A stretch of 64,000 nucleotides of DNA. It comes from an uncultured Alphaproteobacteria bacterium (GTDB lineage: Bacteria > Pseudomonadota > Alphaproteobacteria > UBA8366 > GCA-2717185). Every line of letters starts with the position of its first letter. Positions within the stretch are counted from its first letter, which is position 1. Below, piece by piece: positions 39,673 through 57,995 of this stretch. A program made the translations under genes and the position numbers. The notes beneath the pieces are model-generated. The model was not told where the DNA came from, did not search any database, and was given only the letters and a program-made list of their open reading frames with translations. The stretch is taken from contig CALSRA010000040.1 of the NCBI GenBank assembly GCA_943788635.1, forward strand, positions 1 through 64,000. The letters run 5' to 3'.

Positions 39673-40623
39673 TTACTTAAACTCTTTCGGAAGCATACCG
39701 CCGACAGCGCCGGTCAGGTCCTTGCCTTTGACCGCCTCTGACAGCGCCTGGCCATTGGCCACGCTCGGATCGGAAAGCAGCGCGCCAGCTTCTGGTACCT
39801 GCCCCTTCACCGCCTCAAGCACAGCCGTTGCGGTTGCAATCCGCTTTTCCTGTGCCGCCTTGTATTTTGCGTGATCGGACTTCGACATCGCCTGCGTCGC
39901 GCTCACCAGTGCAGCGGCCTGACCAACCACATACATCTGCGACATCTCGGCCGGTGTCATTTCCTGGTTTTCGGTGACGTTCGGCGGATAGAAGCGATGC
40001 CGGACCGTGCCCTGGCTATACGCAACCAGTTCGAAACCCGGGTTCAACGGGTGCCCGGCGTCGAGCATCGCCGCGGCATCTTTCGCATCCAGCTCGTCGC
40101 GCGCCAAACCGTGACAAGCCATGCAATTGGATGCCACATCGAACAACTTCGACGGCCGGATCATGCCCGCGGCCTCAGCCTTCGCAAACCGTTCCGCCTT
40201 GTGAGCAGCCGGTTCGGCATCGCGCTTGACGCCCTTGCCATAATCATTGTGTACGGTGATCCAGTCGGAAGCCGCGCCATGACAGCTTTCGCAAGAAGGA
40301 CCGGCGACCTGCTTCGGCTTGGCGCCCGCGTCTTTCTTTTCTTCGCTGTAATGGCAAATCGTGCAGGTCTCGGACCGCTTCATCCGCTTGTCGCCGACCG
40401 CCTTGACGATAGCCTTCGCTTTCTCGTTCTTGTGGATACCCTTGAACGATTTGAAATGTTCAGTGCCTTCCCATACCTTGGCTTCCGCCGTATGGCATTC
40501 CTGACATTTCTTGGGCCCGACCTTGAAGGGGGCAGCTTCGGCCTGCGACGTTGCAGCCAGCAATCCAGCCAGCGCAAAAATCGACAACACCGCGAATACT
40601 TTCTCAGAGATTTTCTTCAGCAT
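39673..40623 (-). CDS. Tetraheme c554-like cytochrome
   Basis: The 316-residue exported protein (signal AVLSIFALAGLLAATSQAEA) has four CxxCH sites: KCQECHTAEAKVWEGTEHFK, CTICHYSE, CESCHGAASDWI and CMACHGL. The order and the ExxHxxxF region resemble cytochrome c554 proteins, which shuttle electrons in the periplasm. A heme-free C-terminal helical part is rich in Ala, Lys and Gln. It is the first gene of the cluster, 96 bp before the cNMP/ferredoxin gene. Confidence 0.9.
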   Translation of the reverse strand: MLKKISEKVFAVLSIFALAGLLAATSQAEAAPFKVGPKKCQECHTAEAKVWEGTEHFKSFKGIHKNEKAKAIVKAVGDKRMKRSETCTICHYSEEKKDAGAKPKQVAGPSCESCHGAASDWITVHNDYGKGVKRDAEPAAHKAERFAKAEAAGMIRPSKLFDVASNCMACHGLARDELDAKDAAAMLDAGHPLNPGFELVAYSQGTVRHRFYPPNVTENQEMTPAEMSQMYVVGQAAALVSATQAMSKSDHAKYKAAQEKRIATATAVLEAVKGQVPEAGALLSDPSVANGQALSEAVKGKDLTGAVGGMLPKEFK

Positions 40624-49240: not shown

Positions 49241-50446
49241 TCAGCCGCCCTGGGTTTTCGGCAGCATCGTCTTTTCCACAAAAATTCTCAGATCCGCATC
49301 CGCGCTGTTCCGGGCGGCTTCCTGAACCGCCAGCATCAGCTTTCCGGCTGCTGTCTGCTGCCAGAACCAATCCTGCACCTCCTGACTGGACCGCGTGCCG
49401 GGTTGCGCCGTCCCGGCTTCAGAGTAATAGGCGAGAATATCGGTAAACGCGTCCTTGAAGGCGAAAGCCGCCGGACGATCCGGCATCGGGTTTTCCGCCG
49501 GCGTTTCGTCAAGAAAGGACGCCACAAACCGTGTCGCATCGTCGATTTCCAATCCGCTGACCCCGACCATCGTCCGCTTCCGGCGGTCCAACGACAATTG
49601 ATACCACGGGGACAATTCTGCAATCTCCTGCAGCGTCGCAGTAGCCGGGCCCTGGTCCTCGGCGGGCGGCGGCGCGAAGCTGACCGGACAAACCCAGCCG
49701 GTCATGTCCTCCGCCTTCGCACCCGGCGCATCATCGGGGAAATCTTCCAGCACCACCGGACCGGTCGACGATTCCAGCAATGCCAGCGCGGCACGCAAGA
49801 CCCGTTTCTGGAATTCGGGTTCATCTGGCGCGCCCAGCGGCCGGCCAAGTTCGAACGGCACCCACAGCGCACGGGGCGGCCGAATTTTTTCGGCATGTTC
49901 ACGCACCAGCGCGATGGCGGTCGTCGCCAGACCTTCTTCCTCGAAATAATGGGCAAGCGCGCTCACGGCGCGCGTGCAATTGGGTCAGACCGGGGTCAGA
50001 ATGACGGCATTCACCTGGTCTTCCTTCAGCATCCCGGCCAGTTCACGGGCGCTGGATTCCATCTCGCCGGTATCGGTTGCACCCATGAACGAATAATGGA
50101 AGTCGGCAACGGAACCGATCTCGCCCGCAGCCGCCATCTCCTTCAGCCGCTCGATGGGATAGACGACATTCACATCGTCCTGAAACCCGGTCCGGTCGAA
50201 GTTCACCGACACATGATTCATCAACACATCGCCAGTATCCGCATCACCCGGGATGACGCGATAATCCGCCGACCCACGCGTGAACAGCTTTTCGCCGCGC
50301 AGGCTCAGCCCGGCCGTGGTGACGATCGCCACCCGCCGTTCCGACAGCGCCGGTCCACCAATCCAGGGGGTTGATTCGAAGGATGGCAACGGCAGATGCC
50401 GCAGATGCGCTTGCTCCGATTCAACAAGGTCTTCCATTCGCGCCAT
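49241..50446 (-). CDS. GrdB-like selenoprotein (glycine/betaine/D-proline reductase B family) with in-frame UGA
   Basis: Two same-frame pieces are joined through a single TGA at 49985-49987. Read through, the product has about 401 residues: N-terminal [40 protein letters not shown] and [20 protein letters not shown], then [21 protein letters not shown], continuing with [19 protein letters not shown] and [20 protein letters not shown]. The U-x2-C redox motif is at the family's selenocysteine site. A hairpin fitting a bacterial SECIS follows the UGA. The reductases of this family cleave C-N bonds, but no other reductase subunit is here, so the activity of lone proteobacterial homologues is unknown. 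Confidence 0.85.
49953..49977 (-). promoter_or_regulatory. SECIS-like hairpin after the UGA codon
   Basis: Seven bases after the in-frame UGA, GCACGCGCGC pairs with GCGCGCTTGC (nine of ten) around the loop CGUGA. The apical GU lies 19-20 bases beyond the UGA, within the range of bacterial SelB-recognised elements. It is also within the coding sequence, as usual in bacteria. Confidence 0.65.
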
Positions 50447-50594
50447 GCCAGCTTCCCTTAATCCCGTTCAATCCAATCACGCCGGAGTATGGATCAACCA
50501 GCCATTCCGTAAAAGGACGTCGCGCCGCCGCGTTGCATCCATTCGCCCCGGGGCGCTACTCTGCCCATCCAATTTTCAAACAAGGACACGCCCC

Positions 50595-52477: not shown

Positions 52478-53110
52478 TCAGGCGTCAGCAGGCTGCGACA
52501 AAGCTTCGGCGACGAGCGCCCGGGCCCGCGCGCCAATGTCGTCAATCGTCATACCGGGTTTGTAAAGCGAAGACCCCACGCCAAACCCGTCAACGCCAGC
52601 ATCCCGATACGCGTTCATGTTATCCGCGCCGATCCCCCCCACCGCCAGGACGATCGTATCCGTCGGCAGCACCGCGCGCATGGCACGAACTGCCTTGGGC
52701 GGAATAATTTCGGCCGGGAAAAGTTTCAGCCCGTCGGCACCGGCATCCAGCGCGGCGAAGGCTTCGGTCGGCGTCTGCACACCGGGCGCCGAGATCATCC
52801 CCAGCGTTCGGGCCCGGGACACGACCGCAACATTGAAATTCGGCGCCACGACAAGACGTCCCCCGGCATCGGCAACCCGGTCGATATCCTCGGCGCGCAA
52901 CACCGTACCCGCGCCAACCAGGCACGTGTCGCCATGCGCCACCGCAATCCGGTTGATCGATACAAACGGGTCCGGACTGTTCAGCGGCACCTCGATGATC
53001 CGTATCCCGGCGGCGACAAGCACGGCAGCGACATCGACCGCTTCATCCGGCGACAAGCCGCGCAGGATCGCCACAACCGGCATCGCGTTCAGATAGTCAC
53101 GCAGCGTCAT
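52478..53110 (-). CDS. dgoA: 2-dehydro-3-deoxy-6-phosphogalactonate aldolase
   Basis: From ATG 53110 (behind GGAAAGG) the product has 210 residues. MPVVAILRGLSPDEAVDVAA, GIRIIEVPLNSPDPFVSI, CLVGAGTVLRAEDIDRVADA and the Schiff-base Lys in AGADGLKLFPAEIIPPKAV match class I KDPGal/KDPG aldolases, the LNSP motif favouring galactonate type. It splits the phosphorylated acid to pyruvate and glyceraldehyde-3-phosphate. An earlier GTG at 53131 overlaps the dgoK stop. It follows dgoK in one operon. Confidence 0.9.
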   Translation of the reverse strand: MTLRDYLNAMPVVAILRGLSPDEAVDVAAVLVAAGIRIIEVPLNSPDPFVSINRIAVAHGDTCLVGAGTVLRAEDIDRVADAGGRLVVAPNFNVAVVSRARTLGMISAPGVQTPTEAFAALDAGADGLKLFPAEIIPPKAVRAMRAVLPTDTIVLAVGGIGADNMNAYRDAGVDGFGVGSSLYKPGMTIDDIGARARALVAEALSQPADA

Positions 53111-53127
53111 CGCGTTTTGCCTTTCCG

Positions 53128-54033
53128 TCACTGGTTGGGCCAGGAAACCCGGCGCGACAGGGCGATGAGCCCCCGTATCGTCGCGTCCTCGCTCGCCACG
53201 GCCTCGGCGGTGATGTCATAGCCGTGCAGTGCCCGGATGTAGCGGTCGTTCAGCGTGGCATTGCCAACGACGGTAACCCCGCCATCAACCGCGAACATGT
53301 CACGCATCGCGGCAATTTCACTGCCGATCAGCAGGCCCGACAGAAAGTCACGCATCGAACCCGGGCGCGCCGCGCCTGACAGGTCGAGCGCCCGGACGCC
53401 AAACAGGCTGTCGAGCAACCCGCCTGTAACCTTCGACGCGGCAACACCCTGGTCAAAGGAGTCCCCGTCCAGCGCCGCGGCCTCGGGTTCCATCGACAGT
53501 TTCAGAATCGAATGCTGGCGCAGCACGTCATAGGCCTCACCGGTCATCGAGGTCGCGAAATTCAGGATCGCTTCGTCGCGGCAGGAGACCCATTTCGAAT
53601 GGGTTCCCGGCAGGCATAGCAACCGCTCACCACGCCCTTCCGCCAGGGCGCCGAAGACCTGCACTTCCTCACCGCGCATCACGTCGAAACGGCCGGCAGG
53701 GTTGGTGGTGCTCAGCCCCGGCACGAACACAATCCCGGGCCGTTCGGGATGTGCGACGACGGCCCGCGCGACATCATCCATCGATGCCGGGCAGGGCGCA
53801 TAGGGCGCTTCGAACCAGCCATTGCGGCTGCCGATCATGCCGGACAGGATCGCGCGGCTTTTCCCGTTCCAGCCGGCTGTCAATTCAGCATAGGCCGCCG
53901 CGAAATCCCCACCCGGGACATTCAGAATGCCCAACCCGCTATCGCGTTTATCGACAACGTTGAAATCTGCGTCGAGCCGATAGGACCGGGCATTGGTCGT
54001 CCCCCAGTCGATCAGATGCAGCGCGTCGCTCAT
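53128..54033 (-). CDS. dgoK: 2-dehydro-3-deoxygalactonokinase
   Basis: The 301-residue kinase opens LHLIDWGTTNARSYRLDAD, the phosphate-binding loop of the DgoK family, with ILSGMIGSRNGWFEAPYAPC, FVPGLSTTNPAGRFDVMRG, LLCLPGTHSKWVSCRDEAIL and the C-terminal GVTVVGNATLNDRYIRALHG. It phosphorylates 2-keto-3-deoxygalactonate before the dgoA aldolase. The stop overlaps the dgoA region and the start overlaps the next gene by 4 bases (ATGA). Confidence 0.93.
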   Translation of the reverse strand: MSDALHLIDWGTTNARSYRLDADFNVVDKRDSGLGILNVPGGDFAAAYAELTAGWNGKSRAILSGMIGSRNGWFEAPYAPCPASMDDVARAVVAHPERPGIVFVPGLSTTNPAGRFDVMRGEEVQVFGALAEGRGERLLCLPGTHSKWVSCRDEAILNFATSMTGEAYDVLRQHSILKLSMEPEAAALDGDSFDQGVAASKVTGGLLDSLFGVRALDLSGAARPGSMRDFLSGLLIGSEIAAMRDMFAVDGGVTVVGNATLNDRYIRALHGYDITAEAVASEDATIRGLIALSRRVSWPNQ

Positions 54034-54950
54034 TTGCCCCAGCGCAGCACGATGGGATCAAGCGCCCGTGCCAGCGCCAGCAATTCTGCCCGCGTTGCCG
54101 GGTGCAACGGCGGCAGCGGATGGCGGACATGATCGGATTTGATCACCCCGCCTTCCATCATCGCCGTCTTGCAGGCGCGCAACCCGCATTGCCGGTTTTC
54201 GAAATTGATCAGCGGCAGGATCTTCGTGTACTGGGCGGCGGCATCATCGGCACGGCCCGCAACGTGATGTTCGAGTACCGGCTTGATCAGGTCCGGCAAC
54301 AGCGCGCTGGACATCGTGCCTGTCGCGCCGGCATTCAGGTCCGCCATCAGGGTGATCGCTTCCTCACCATCAAACGGCCCCTCGATGGCATCGCCACCAG
54401 CCTCGATCAGCGCCCGTATCTTGCCCGCCGCCATGGGCGTTTCGATCTTGAAATAGGCGACCTGTTCGATTTCCCGCGCGATCCGCACCAGGAACGGCAC
54501 GGTCAGGTCCATGCCGCTCAACGGTGCGTCCTGCACCATAATGGGAATGCCGGCACCCGCGCCAATCTGCGCGAACTGTTCAAAGGTTCCGGCTTCGCCG
54601 CCTCTCAGCGTCGCCCCGTGATAGGGCGGCATCATCATGATCATGGCCGCGCCCAGATCCGCCGCACGGGTCGCCCGGGCGACGGCGATCTGCGTGGAAA
54701 AATGCGAACAGGTCACGATCACTGGAACCCGCCCCGCGACATGAGTCAGGCAGACCTCTGCCAGGGTTTCACGTTCCGCATCGGTCAGCAAAAACTGTTC
54801 GGAAAAATTCGCCAGGATGCACATGCCGTCCACGCCCTGATCGATCATGCAATCGATGATGCGCTTCTGCCCTTCGATATCCAGTTCGCCGGTTTCCGTG
54901 AATGGCGTCGGTACGACGGGGAATACCCCCTTGTATGGTCTGTCGGTCAT
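54030..54950 (-). CDS. DHDPS-family lyase, L-2-keto-3-deoxyarabonate dehydratase-like
   Basis: From ATG 54950 the protein (306 residues) has YKGVFPVVPTPFTETGELDI, DGMCILANFSEQFLLTDAER, VIVTCSHFSTQIAVARATRA and MMMPPYHGATLRGGEAGTF, then the Schiff-base Lys in VAYFKIETPMAAGKIRALIE and the GPFDGEEAITLMADLNAGA segment. This combination resembles L-2-keto-3-deoxyarabonate dehydratases rather than dapA. It would turn a 2-keto-3-deoxy pentonate into alpha-ketoglutarate semialdehyde. It overlaps dgoK, so the operon handles several 2-keto-3-deoxy acids. Confidence 0.82.
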   Translation of the reverse strand: MTDRPYKGVFPVVPTPFTETGELDIEGQKRIIDCMIDQGVDGMCILANFSEQFLLTDAERETLAEVCLTHVAGRVPVIVTCSHFSTQIAVARATRAADLGAAMIMMMPPYHGATLRGGEAGTFEQFAQIGAGAGIPIMVQDAPLSGMDLTVPFLVRIAREIEQVAYFKIETPMAAGKIRALIEAGGDAIEGPFDGEEAITLMADLNAGATGTMSSALLPDLIKPVLEHHVAGRADDAAAQYTKILPLINFENRQCGLRACKTAMMEGGVIKSDHVRHPLPPLHPATRAELLALARALDPIVLRWGK

Positions 54951-54958
54951 TTGTCCTC

Positions 54959-55810
54959 TCAATCCGCCGGTATGGTTTGCAGCGCGGCGCGCAACTGCGC
55001 CGTATCCGCCGTGTGGCCGGAATATATGGTCCAGGCATCGATGCCCTGATGGAAGAACAGCTCATAGCCGCTCATGATCTGCAGCCCCTGTAGCTGCGCA
55101 TCGCCGAGGAATTGGGTGTCGATTGGCGTATAGACCGCATCGAAGGCCCATTGCGCATCGCGCATCAGCGCCGCCGGCATGGGCGTCCCGCCATACCCGA
55201 CCATCCCGACGGGGGTGCAGTTGACCAGCCCGGTCGCGCCCGCTGCCGCAGCGGCCACATCGTCGCTGACCAGAAAATCGGCTGCTGGCGCCGCAATGCG
55301 CAACTGCGCCGCAAGCGCTTCGGCGCGCGGCCTGTCCGTGTCGATCAGGCGCAGTTCGGAAACACCCAGCGTGACGAGACCAAAGGCCACCGCCTTGCCG
55401 ACGCCACCCGCGCCCAGCATGCAGACCCGGCCCGGCGGCACCTCCCCGAACGTCGCGCGAAAGGCGGCAACGAAACCGGAATAATCCGTGTTGAAGCCGC
55501 GCGGCCCGTCCGCTTCGAACACCACCGTATTGACCGCGCCGATGGCCCGGACATTCGGATCGTCGACCCGAACCTTGCCGGCAGCGACTTCCTTGTATGG
55601 ATAGGTGATGTTGATACCGCGATAGCCCTGCGCGATGCAGTCGGCAAAAACCGCGTCGAAATCCTTGCCTAACTCCGCCGGCGTCAGCAGATCATAGGTA
55701 ACCGAAATTCCGGCCTGTGCGCCCGATAACCCGTGCAGGTATGGCGCGCGGGACGCCGCAATATTGCCGCCGATCAGCCCCAGCTTCATATGCGGCTGCG
55801 GGTCAGACAT
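54959..55810 (-). CDS. Shikimate/quinate dehydrogenase (AroE family)
   Basis: From ATG 55810 the product (283 residues) shows the shikimate-binding KLGLIGGNIAASRAPYLHGL, the catalytic Lys in YRGINITYPYKEVAAGKV, the cofactor loop VCMLGAGGVGKAVAFGLV, an Asp after beta-2 (LRLIDTDRPRAEALA) favouring NAD, and GYELFFHQGIDAW. It therefore looks catabolic (quinate/shikimate dehydrogenase) rather than the biosynthetic NADP enzyme. Its start overlaps the pcaG stop, placing it in the protocatechuate operon where it would feed 3-dehydroshikimate. Confidence 0.88.
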   Translation of the reverse strand: MSDPQPHMKLGLIGGNIAASRAPYLHGLSGAQAGISVTYDLLTPAELGKDFDAVFADCIAQGYRGINITYPYKEVAAGKVRVDDPNVRAIGAVNTVVFEADGPRGFNTDYSGFVAAFRATFGEVPPGRVCMLGAGGVGKAVAFGLVTLGVSELRLIDTDRPRAEALAAQLRIAAPAADFLVSDDVAAAAAGATGLVNCTPVGMVGYGGTPMPAALMRDAQWAFDAVYTPIDTQFLGDAQLQGLQIMSGYELFFHQGIDAWTIYSGHTADTAQLRAALQTIPAD

Positions 55811-56390
55811 CGAAGAAGACGGTTTCGGCGGCGCCCTGCATATGAATGTCGAACCGGTATACGACGCCACCGTCGCGTTCGATTTTTTCCGCCAGCAAGG
55901 TGCCGCGACGTTCTTCGGGAATTGACATCAGCACGGGGTCTTTCGCGTTCGCGACCACTTCGTCGGGAAAATAGAGGCGCGTATAGGCGTGGTTCGGCAT
56001 CCCGCGCATGAAGACAATGACATTTATATGCGGCGCCTGTTCGCTATCCACCGGACCCGGCTTGACGGTGCGGAAGACAAAACGGTTCTCCGGATCGGTT
56101 CCCGTGCCCCAGCGCGCAAACCCCTTGAAGGCCTGATTGGACGACCGCTGGTCGTTCGGGTGATTGTACCGGCCTTCCGTATCGGCCTGCCAGATTTCGA
56201 TCACGGCATCGCCGATCACCGTCCCCGCGCCATCGAAGACGTGGCCTTCGACCGTCACCGCGGCGCTGTCTTCGATCCCTTCCACCGTGGCCCCGGCGAT
56301 GCTGGCGAAGTCATAGCCATATTGTTCCGGCGTCATGCCATAGGCGAAGAACGGCCCGACCGTCTGCGACGGCGTCTGTTTGCTGCTCAT
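55803..56390 (-). CDS. pcaG: Protocatechuate 3,4-dioxygenase alpha subunit
   Basis: From ATG 56390 (MSSKQTPSQTVGPFFAYGM) the 195-residue protein has the intradiol dioxygenase core: AVIEIWQADTEGRYNHPND, PHINVIVFMRGMPNHAYTRL and ERDGGVVYRFDIHMQGAAET. The alpha subunit lacks the iron ligands and forms the pocket with PcaH. It follows pcaH by 4 bp and overlaps the AroE-like start. Together PcaGH open the protocatechuate ring to beta-carboxymuconate. Confidence 0.94.
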   Translation of the reverse strand: MSSKQTPSQTVGPFFAYGMTPEQYGYDFASIAGATVEGIEDSAAVTVEGHVFDGAGTVIGDAVIEIWQADTEGRYNHPNDQRSSNQAFKGFARWGTGTDPENRFVFRTVKPGPVDSEQAPHINVIVFMRGMPNHAYTRLYFPDEVVANAKDPVLMSIPEERRGTLLAEKIERDGGVVYRFDIHMQGAAETVFFDV

Positions 56391-56394
56391 GCGC

Positions 56395-57084
56395 TCAATC
56401 CTCCATCGGGGTTTCGCCGCGACCGGCCAATACGATGTCGAACCGGTAGCCAAGGGCAAAATCCGGCTCGGTCACGCCAAGATCGAGGGATGAAACCAGC
56501 CGGTCCCGCGCGCCTTCGGGCACGCCCCGAAAGATCGGGTCCAGCGCCAGCAGCGGATCGCCGGGAAAATACATCTGTGTCACCAGCCGGGACGCAATGG
56601 TCGGCCCGAACAATGAGAAATGAATATGGTTCGGCCGCCATGCGTTGGGATGGTTGCCCCAGGGATAGGCGCCCGGCTTGATCGTATGGAACCGATACAC
56701 TCCGTCCGCATCGGTCACGCAGCGCCCCGCACCCAGAAAGTTCGGATCAAGCGGCGCGTCATGCTGGTCGACGGCGTGGTTGTAACGGCCCGACGCATTC
56801 GCCTGCCAGATTTCAAGCAGCGTATCGGGCACCGGCTTTCCGTTGCCATCGAGCACCCGGCCGGAAACGACAATGCGCTCGCCGAGCGGTTCGCCGGTCT
56901 TGCGGCTGTTCAGCGTCAGATCGGCATCATCCGGCCCAAGGCATTCATGCCCGTAAACCGGTCCCGTCCGTTCGGATAAGGTATGCGGCAATGGTACGAG
57001 TGGTTTTGTCGGCCCGCGTAGCGCGGTCGATTTATACCCTTCGTGAATATACGGCGGGTGCGAATCCCAGTCGCGTGCCGACAT
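56395..57084 (-). CDS. pcaH: Protocatechuate 3,4-dioxygenase beta subunit
   Basis: From ATG 57084 behind GGGGAGAAGAAG the 229-residue protein has the iron-binding pattern YNHAVDQH, PYPWGNHPNAWRPNHIHFSL-like sequence (Tyr, His, His) and ALGYRFDIVLAGRGETPMED. Lacking a signal, it is cytoplasmic. The Tyr/Tyr/His/His Fe(III) ligands of intradiol dioxygenases are in this subunit. It is first of the pcaH-pcaG-aroE-like unit, preceded by the dehydroshikimate-dehydratase-like gene. Confidence 0.94.
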   Translation of the reverse strand: MSARDWDSHPPYIHEGYKSTALRGPTKPLVPLPHTLSERTGPVYGHECLGPDDADLTLNSRKTGEPLGERIVVSGRVLDGNGKPVPDTLLEIWQANASGRYNHAVDQHDAPLDPNFLGAGRCVTDADGVYRFHTIKPGAYPWGNHPNAWRPNHIHFSLFGPTIASRLVTQMYFPGDPLLALDPIFRGVPEGARDRLVSSLDLGVTEPDFALGYRFDIVLAGRGETPMED

Positions 57085-57185
57085 CTTCTTCTCCCCCCTC
57101 AACACAAAACTTGCCGAAATCAGTATCGGTATTAACAGCGGGACCGACAACCGAAATACCCGCCCCGGAAGGCGGCGGTAAAAGG

Positions 57186-57995
57186 CTAGGCCGTATCCAT
57201 GAGCGCCTGAAGCGATTGCAGTGCATCGACGGCATGTTGCGGCAGCGGCACAGTGTCCGCTTCGGTGGCGAAAATTTCCAGCGAGTACACACCGGTATAG
57301 CCGGTCGCCTTGATCGCGCGCACGAAGGAAACCAGGTCAAAATCGCCCCGGCCCGGAAGGCATCGATGCTGCCGGCTCCAGGGCATCAGATCCATATCCA
57401 GCCACGGGGCATCCGTAATCTGAATGTCGAAAATCCTGTCCGATGGAATATGCCCGATGGGTTCGACGGGCAGGCCCAGCGCCAGTACGTGGAAACTGTC
57501 GAGGACCAGCCCGACATTCGGGTGATCAACGCGCTGGATAATGTCCCAGCCATCGCGGTAGTCGCTGACATGGCCTGCCCAGGCAAGCGGTTCGATACCG
57601 ACCCGGAAGCCCCGCGCGGCGGCGCGTTCGCCCAGTTCGTGGAAATCGGCGATGGCCCGTTTCGGCTCGGGCGATGCATCGGGTGAAACATTGGTACAGG
57701 TCAGCAGCAGATCGGTACCAAGCGCCTGCATGATATCGAATTGCCGTTCGGCCCGGTCGAAATTGTCAGACCGCGCGGGTTCCGGCATGGCTTCGAACTC
57801 GCGAAATGGCATGAAGGTCGACACCGAAAGCCCCAGATCGGCCACCAGCTCGCCAATCGCGGCCGCATCCATCCCGCCGGGTTCGATATCGGTCGCAAAA
57901 ATCTCCACCCCGGTAAATCCGGCGGCGGCAATGGCGCGCAACTTGTTTGTCAGGTCGCCATGGAACGTTACGGTCGCGGTTGCCAGCTTCATCAT
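57186..57995 (-). CDS. TIM-barrel 3-dehydroshikimate dehydratase-like enzyme
   Basis: The 269-residue sugar-phosphate-isomerase-like barrel has KLATATVTFHGDLTNKLRAI, FTGVEIFATDIEPGGMDAA, and a metal set Glu-Asp-Gln-Glu in FRVGIEPLAWAGH, VGLVLDSFHVLALG, IFDIQITDAPW and TGVYSLEIFATEAD. This is the AP-endonuclease-2 fold used by bacterial dehydroshikimate dehydratases (QuiC/AsbF type). Placed 101 bp ahead of pcaH, it would convert 3-dehydroshikimate to protocatechuate. An isomerase/epimerase role is the alternative. Confidence 0.8.
   Translation of the reverse strand: MMKLATATVTFHGDLTNKLRAIAAAGFTGVEIFATDIEPGGMDAAAIGELVADLGLSVSTFMPFREFEAMPEPARSDNFDRAERQFDIMQALGTDLLLTCTNVSPDASPEPKRAIADFHELGERAAARGFRVGIEPLAWAGHVSDYRDGWDIIQRVDHPNVGLVLDSFHVLALGLPVEPIGHIPSDRIFDIQITDAPWLDMDLMPWSRQHRCLPGRGDFDLVSFVRAIKATGYTGVYSLEIFATEADTVPLPQHAVDALQSLQALMDTA

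Follow-up and report, generated by a model that had tools for sequence, protein, structure and literature searches.

A widespread family of GrdB/PrdB-like selenoproteins encoded without GrdE- or GrdA-type partners, with a possible link to dehalogenation

The window analyzed here is a stretch of 64,000 nucleotides at the start of contig CALSRA010000040.1 from an uncultured alphaproteobacterium (assembly GCA_943788635.1), and it contains on its minus strand a gene that is interrupted by an in-frame UGA. The initial annotation, made from the sequence of the window, had described 2 frames in phase across a single UGA at a U-P-N-C site and had attributed them to a GrdB-like selenoprotein split in 2. 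There is indeed one frame of 401 codons at this locus (gene, 49241–50446; frame, 50446–49244), which begins with an ATG at 50446, ends at a TGA stop codon (49243–49241), and can be aligned with homologues across the UGA in a protein alignment of 33 rows. Its sole internal UGA is codon 154 (49987–49985), in the peptide context VILTPV-U-PNCTRAV, and the redox motif U154-P-N-C157 spans 49976–49987, with U154, C157, T158, and A160 invariant in 33 sequences. As the annotation anticipated for automated gene calling, translation table 11 yields 2 truncated open reading frames (ORFs) on the minus strand, one of 153 amino acids (50446–49985) and one of 241 amino acids with a GTG start (49966–49241). 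A putative Shine-Dalgarno-like sequence, AAGGGA (50454–50459, minus strand), is located 7 nucleotides 5′ of the ATG. The genes flanking it are on the plus strand and the gene is monocistronic; an operon with these neighbours (by eye, a thiolase, a methyltransferase, and a tartrate/isopropylmalate-type dehydrogenase) was rejected because they lie on the other strand, and a plus-strand frame at the locus was discarded as spurious.

Downstream of the UGA, a stem with a GU in its loop had been reported to begin 7 bases away, and the fold, covariation, and codon usage of this region all bear it out. The hairpin, of the selenocysteine insertion sequence (SECIS) type (49953–49977, minus strand), starts with its full helix at the eighth base past the UGA (7 bases between), and its core helix, 11 bases past the UGA, pairs 49973–49968 with 49962–49957 around the GU-containing loop CGUGA (49967–49963). 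The minimum free energy is −15.4 kcal/mol, with a z value of −2.5 against shuffled sequences. When columns are numbered from the U of the UGA, the six-pair core stem (columns 15–20 with 26–31) was paired in 90.5% of the cells of 70 sequences, which exceeds all 500 shuffles, and every slid version of the stem scored worse than the actual register. Compensatory states were found at pair 16–30 (CG in 48, UA in 16, UG in 2, and AU and GC in 1 sequence each). Column 16 opens the U+5 codon, which encodes Arg, Cys, Ser, or Gly, and column 30 falls on a third codon position. The mostly silent column 30 tracks the amino-acid change at column 16, and the constraint is therefore on the RNA and not on the protein. 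In between-sequence comparisons, the use of identical codons for the same residue averaged 0.40 over 328 columns and reached 0.66, 0.88, 1.0, 0.76, and 1.0 at U+3, U+4, U+5, U+6, and U+8, respectively, this synonymous-codon freezing being limited to about U+3 to U+8. Scanning the locus against Rfam gave no SECIS match and a single sub-threshold chance hit.

To find homologues, 84,980 species genomes were scanned with peptide patterns, none of which covered the selenocysteine (Sec) site, and 72 loci were obtained. All 75 homologous places in these loci carry TGA at the position of codon 154. Purifying selection acts on both sides of this codon, with ratios of nonsynonymous to synonymous substitution (dN/dS) of about 0.05–0.12 before and 0.11–0.16 after it. 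The loci are labelled as Alpha-, Beta-, Gamma-, and Deltaproteobacteria (Desulfobacterota, Myxococcota), Chloroflexota, and Nitrospinota, and the family is both widespread and well conserved. Several metagenome-assembled genomes labelled Bordetella parapertussis or Chitinophaga pinensis (L010, L034, L038, L055, and others) group with Burkholderiales/betaproteobacteria in the protein tree, and their labels are probably wrong. In the tree, the long form is separated with 100% support from a short form of PrdB length. Short copies occur in the same genomes; the genome of the window has one (L123, C25:289–942) with the motif UPVCHQTVSL, located 10 nucleotides upstream of a CaiB/BaiF CoA-transferase gene. 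Another member of the family to which the window's genome belongs (G016) shows a paralogue expansion, its long and short matches numbering up to 11, nearly all with UGA.

The Sec machinery that the initial annotation had named as a check is present in full in the window's genome (57 contigs, 84% complete): adjoining selA and selB genes, selD, and a tRNA-Sec with anticodon UCA. Within the order of the window, UGA copies are carried by 22/22 genomes of 2 families; selA is present in 21 of these genomes, and the one without it is 64% complete. A third family has no selA above the cut-off and contains only stop-free short copies. Of 385 genomes sampled across the class, 30 carry the long form with UGA (29 of them with selA) and 3 carry it without a stop codon (none with selA), while selA is present in 27 of the 352 genomes lacking the long-form gene (Fisher p = 6e-27 for the linkage of long-form UGA with selA). 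The lone exception among the 30 genomes, with no selA found, is that of L150 (G326:C98). At the Sec site, the 3 stop-free copies read TGC or TGT, and the conserved codons of the hairpin, including the loop GU, are lost in them. The second proposed check, for homologues with a residue aligned at the UGA, thus gave UGA where selA is present and a Cys codon where it is absent. In 10 of 29 genomes, about a third of the selA-bearing alphaproteobacterial carriers, the gene and selA are less than 10 kb apart, and in 2 of these 10 the gene is approximately 130 bp from, and divergent to, selA-selB. One long-form paralogue (L138, G019:C158) has CGA (Arg) at the UGA site with the hairpin sequence retained, which points to decay or a base error. 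Because the UGA is conserved, the hairpin covaries and its codons are near-frozen, the machinery is present, and Cys forms occur in genomes without selA, it is essentially certain from these comparisons that codon 154 is decoded as selenocysteine by SelB and tRNA-Sec with the help of the downstream hairpin.

We then analyzed the domains of the protein. Residues 33–226 match the PrdB model TIGR04483 with 103 bits, where the cut-off is 300, and tested relatives score similarly (83–113 bits). Residues 33–151 match the Pfam GRDB model PF07355 (40.2 bits, gathering score 22), covering only positions 222–345 of the 347 of the profile. Curated GrdB-type models give 45–65 bits, all below cut-off (TIGR01917, 44.8 against 602; TIGR01918, 52.8 against 65). 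The description of the protein as GrdB-like therefore holds at the Pfam level, but its best curated model is PrdB, and that match is below cut-off. An AlphaFold model built from 33 homologues (predicted local distance difference test score, pLDDT, of 89 overall) is alpha/beta to about residue 235 and helical thereafter. This suggests a GrdB/PrdB-like alpha/beta domain (residues 33–235; 49742–50350, minus strand) followed by an all-helical C-terminal domain (residues 263–393; 49268–49660, minus strand; pLDDT of 86.6 when modelled alone), for which no consistent Pfam match was found in 30 members. Residues invariant in 33 sequences include R38, R63, H117-Y118-S119, U154, C157, R192, W195, C253, and E343, of which Cys253 (49688–49690, minus strand), followed by P254, is a candidate third redox residue. 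No match was obtained in a sequence search of the PDB. When the whole model and the C-terminal domain were compared with PDB structures, nothing beyond weak matches to common folds was obtained, the best having a Z of 8.2 (3.4 Å over 140 residues) for the Rossmann-like part and of 5.0 for the helical part, with no evident relative.

Curated D-proline and glycine reductases act with partner proteins, and the initial annotation had seen no PrdA or GrdA/C/D genes beside the gene. For PrdA and GrdA this absence extends to the genome as far as it is assembled. PF09338 (GrdE/PrdA) was not found in the window's genome (84% complete), in a relative from the same genus whose genome is 100% complete (G024), or in 26 of 31 searched genomes carrying the family, the 5 positive genomes serving as a control for the search; GrdA (PF04723) was likewise not found in the first 2 genomes, was found in the same 5 positive genomes, and showed the same split as PF09338 among 15 genomes. 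The stand-alone nature noted in the initial annotation is therefore upheld, and the stand-alone form is not confined to alphaproteobacteria. PrdB resembles the window protein in having a homologous domain of similar length (residues 33–226) and Sec in a UxxC motif, but the window protein falls short of the 300-bit PrdB cut-off, no PrdA was found in its genome, and it adds about 165 C-terminal residues. GrdB (PF07355; TIGR01917/TIGR01918) is homologous through its C-terminal part, Sec and the following T-R included. However, the GrdE-linked GrdB motif TSTUGTCTRCG differs from TPVUPNCTRAV of the window protein, which lacks the Cys at U+6, and GrdB has GrdE and GrdA partners, neither of which was found by our searches of the window's genome. 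A GrdA/GrdE/GrdB set with this GrdB motif is present in a close relative from the same family (L143, G016:C421). Judged by its sequence, the window protein belongs to a distinct subfamily of approximately 400 residues, outside curated PrdB and GrdB.

Because the window copy is monocistronic with neighbours on the opposite strand, its own context is uninformative on the substrate, and we examined the genes adjacent to the 72 loci. The recurrent families directly adjacent on the same strand were TauD (9 loci), TctC (5), haloacid dehalogenase (HAD) superfamily hydrolases (5), and CoA-transferases (3). The HAD proteins tested are haloacid dehalogenases type II above the curated cut-off and are nearest to solved (S)-2-haloacid dehalogenases. 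This adjacency occurs in 3 separate clades, downstream of the gene in betaproteobacteria, upstream in Desulfobulbaceae/Desulfocapsaceae, and downstream with another HAD subgroup in Desulfobacteraceae, and sister rows of all 3 clades have no adjacent HAD gene. A HAD profile matched 6 of 134 adjacent genes and 0 of 402 further genes (p = 2e-4), a p-value that is only a guide because each related locus enters the count on its own and the profile derives from the same members. Above cut-off, HAD type II matches number 41 in 31 genomes, and 3 of the genomes with the adjacency (G053, G058, and G059) have a single such copy each, which makes 3 independent chance adjacencies improbable, although many neighbour families were looked at. 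TauD was rejected as the main clue because its adjacency comes mostly from a single Burkholderiales clade, together with one pseudomonad and 2 short paralogues, and CaiB because it concerns short paralogues only. Among other neighbourhoods, the interval between murJ and trpS, a conserved housekeeping site, holds one or two long-form copies in several genomes (L127, L133, L140, L013). The stop codon of one short-form gene overlaps, as TGATG, the start of a glutaredoxin gene encoding CAPC (L136:7320–7324), and a 482-residue protein with CETC near its start and no Pfam or NCBIfam match is encoded directly 3′ of a long form (L134:5586–7031).

The dehalogenase adjacency in 3 clades suggests that a leaving group, for example a halide, is removed reductively. 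A precedent exists in FarB/FarE of Cloacibacillus, proposed for fluoroacetate reduction, in which FarE is devoid of the cysteines needed to form a pyruvoyl group (PMC10838667). FarB resembles the window protein in being a GrdB-like Sec protein with a proposed halide displacement that does without a pyruvoyl group, but it has its FarE partner in an operon and reportedly passes its product to GrdA/GrdC, whereas the window gene is alone and no GrdE-type or GrdA gene was found in its genome. We consider it probable that the protein is a stand-alone selenol reductase acting on carbon; reductive dehalogenation in particular is a more tentative assignment. In a single polypeptide, a GrdB-type alpha/beta domain with the U-x-x-C active site would be combined with its own helical C-terminal domain. 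The Sec154 selenolate would attack a small substrate at an electrophilic carbon and expel the leaving group, Cys157 (possibly Cys253) would cleave the Se-carbon adduct to form a selenenyl-sulfide, and thioredoxin or glutaredoxin would reduce the latter, a step with which the glutaredoxin overlap of the short paralogue is consistent. Without a pyruvoyl Schiff base, the substrate would already have to bear a good leaving group, and a halide-bearing small organic acid is the best-supported guess from the dehalogenase adjacency and FarB. The family as a whole may, with the same reserve, comprise self-contained, pyruvoyl-free selenoenzymes that act on small organic acids, reductively removing halide or some other leaving group, in bacteria that are diverse and in many cases marine, and may be one of the main clients that the Sec machinery has in many alphaproteobacteria. 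Several observations weigh against this proposal: the dehalogenase link occurs in just 6 of the 72 loci, there are different contexts elsewhere (TauD dioxygenase, murJ-trpS, selD/selA), FarB still acts with FarE and feeds GrdA, no solved structure in the PDB comparison was similar enough to the model to reveal a substrate site, and the order of electron transfer is deduced.

A rather unlikely alternative is that the protein is a general thiol-disulfide or peroxide reductase whose UxxC motif shuttles electrons in redox defence, as in marine thioredoxin- and peroxiredoxin-like selenoproteins. The motif itself, the short paralogue overlapping a glutaredoxin gene, and the diverse neighbourhoods that include housekeeping sites such as murJ-trpS fit this function, but the domain sequence is of GrdB type and not thioredoxin, conservation extends far outside the motif, as a substrate pocket would predict, and the dehalogenase adjacency recurs in 3 clades. 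That the protein is an orphan D-proline (or glycine) reductase, a PrdB with an unrecognised substitute for PrdA, perhaps its own C-terminal domain, seems improbable: although PrdB is its best curated model and similar proteins are classed as PrdB in the parts of 2 marine surveys that treat them (PMC1088965, PMC2398784), the score is about a third of the cut-off, PF09338 is missing from the searches of this and most other carrier genomes, and the recurrent adjacent families include nothing related to proline. A non-selenoprotein origin (a nonsense-mutated gene, a sequencing error, or UGA decoded as another amino acid), for which the lone Arg paralogue was the only support found, has a negligible probability given the UGA in 75/75 places across several phyla, the purifying selection downstream of it, the SECIS covariation, and the selA linkage.

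A Sec gene of the broad PrdB-like family is not new, since the family is abundant in marine metagenomes. A 2005 survey of the Sargasso Sea described 42 genes for PrdB-like UxxC selenoproteins (PMC1088965), the Global Ocean Sampling survey of 2008 gave 235 Sec and 110 Cys forms (PMC2398784), and later reviews also include them. These marine "proline reductase PrdB" proteins resemble the window protein in their UxxC motif, assignment to pfam07355, and predominance of Sec, and the window gene most probably belongs to this group. Within their accounts of the family, the 2 surveys test no function, do not separate the approximately 400-residue and short forms, and, unlike the present work, contain no analysis of SECIS covariation or neighbourhoods. 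Our literature search found no paper that separates the approximately 400-residue subfamily or tests its function. Relative to the literature found, what is new is the long form set apart with its own domain and failing PrdB and GrdB membership, together with the covarying SECIS, the Cys/selA switch, the proximity to selA, and the dehalogenase adjacency. PrdB-like selenoproteins are among the most abundant marine selenoprotein families and owe their annotation as D-proline reductase subunits to homology alone, and here a coherent subfamily is described that lacks the partners and curated signatures of D-proline reductase and has a C-terminal domain of its own. The link to 2-haloacid dehalogenases provides a directly testable substrate class and could tie selenium use to organohalogen turnover. 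An early survey found alphaproteobacterial Sec decoding only for formate dehydrogenase (PMC1794560); contrary to it, Sec decoding in this class serves more than that enzyme.

Elsewhere in the window, a minus-strand ORF at 39673–40623 contains several CxxCH-type haem motifs and resembles a multihaem cytochrome c. A same-strand run of catabolic-looking genes on the minus strand (52478–57995), named by eye only, includes a 2-keto-3-deoxy-6-phosphogluconate (KDPG)-type aldolase, a 2-dehydro-3-deoxygalactonokinase-like protein, a member of the dihydrodipicolinate synthase (DHDPS) family, a shikimate dehydrogenase-like protein, 2 protocatechuate-dioxygenase-like subunits, and a TIM-barrel isomerase.
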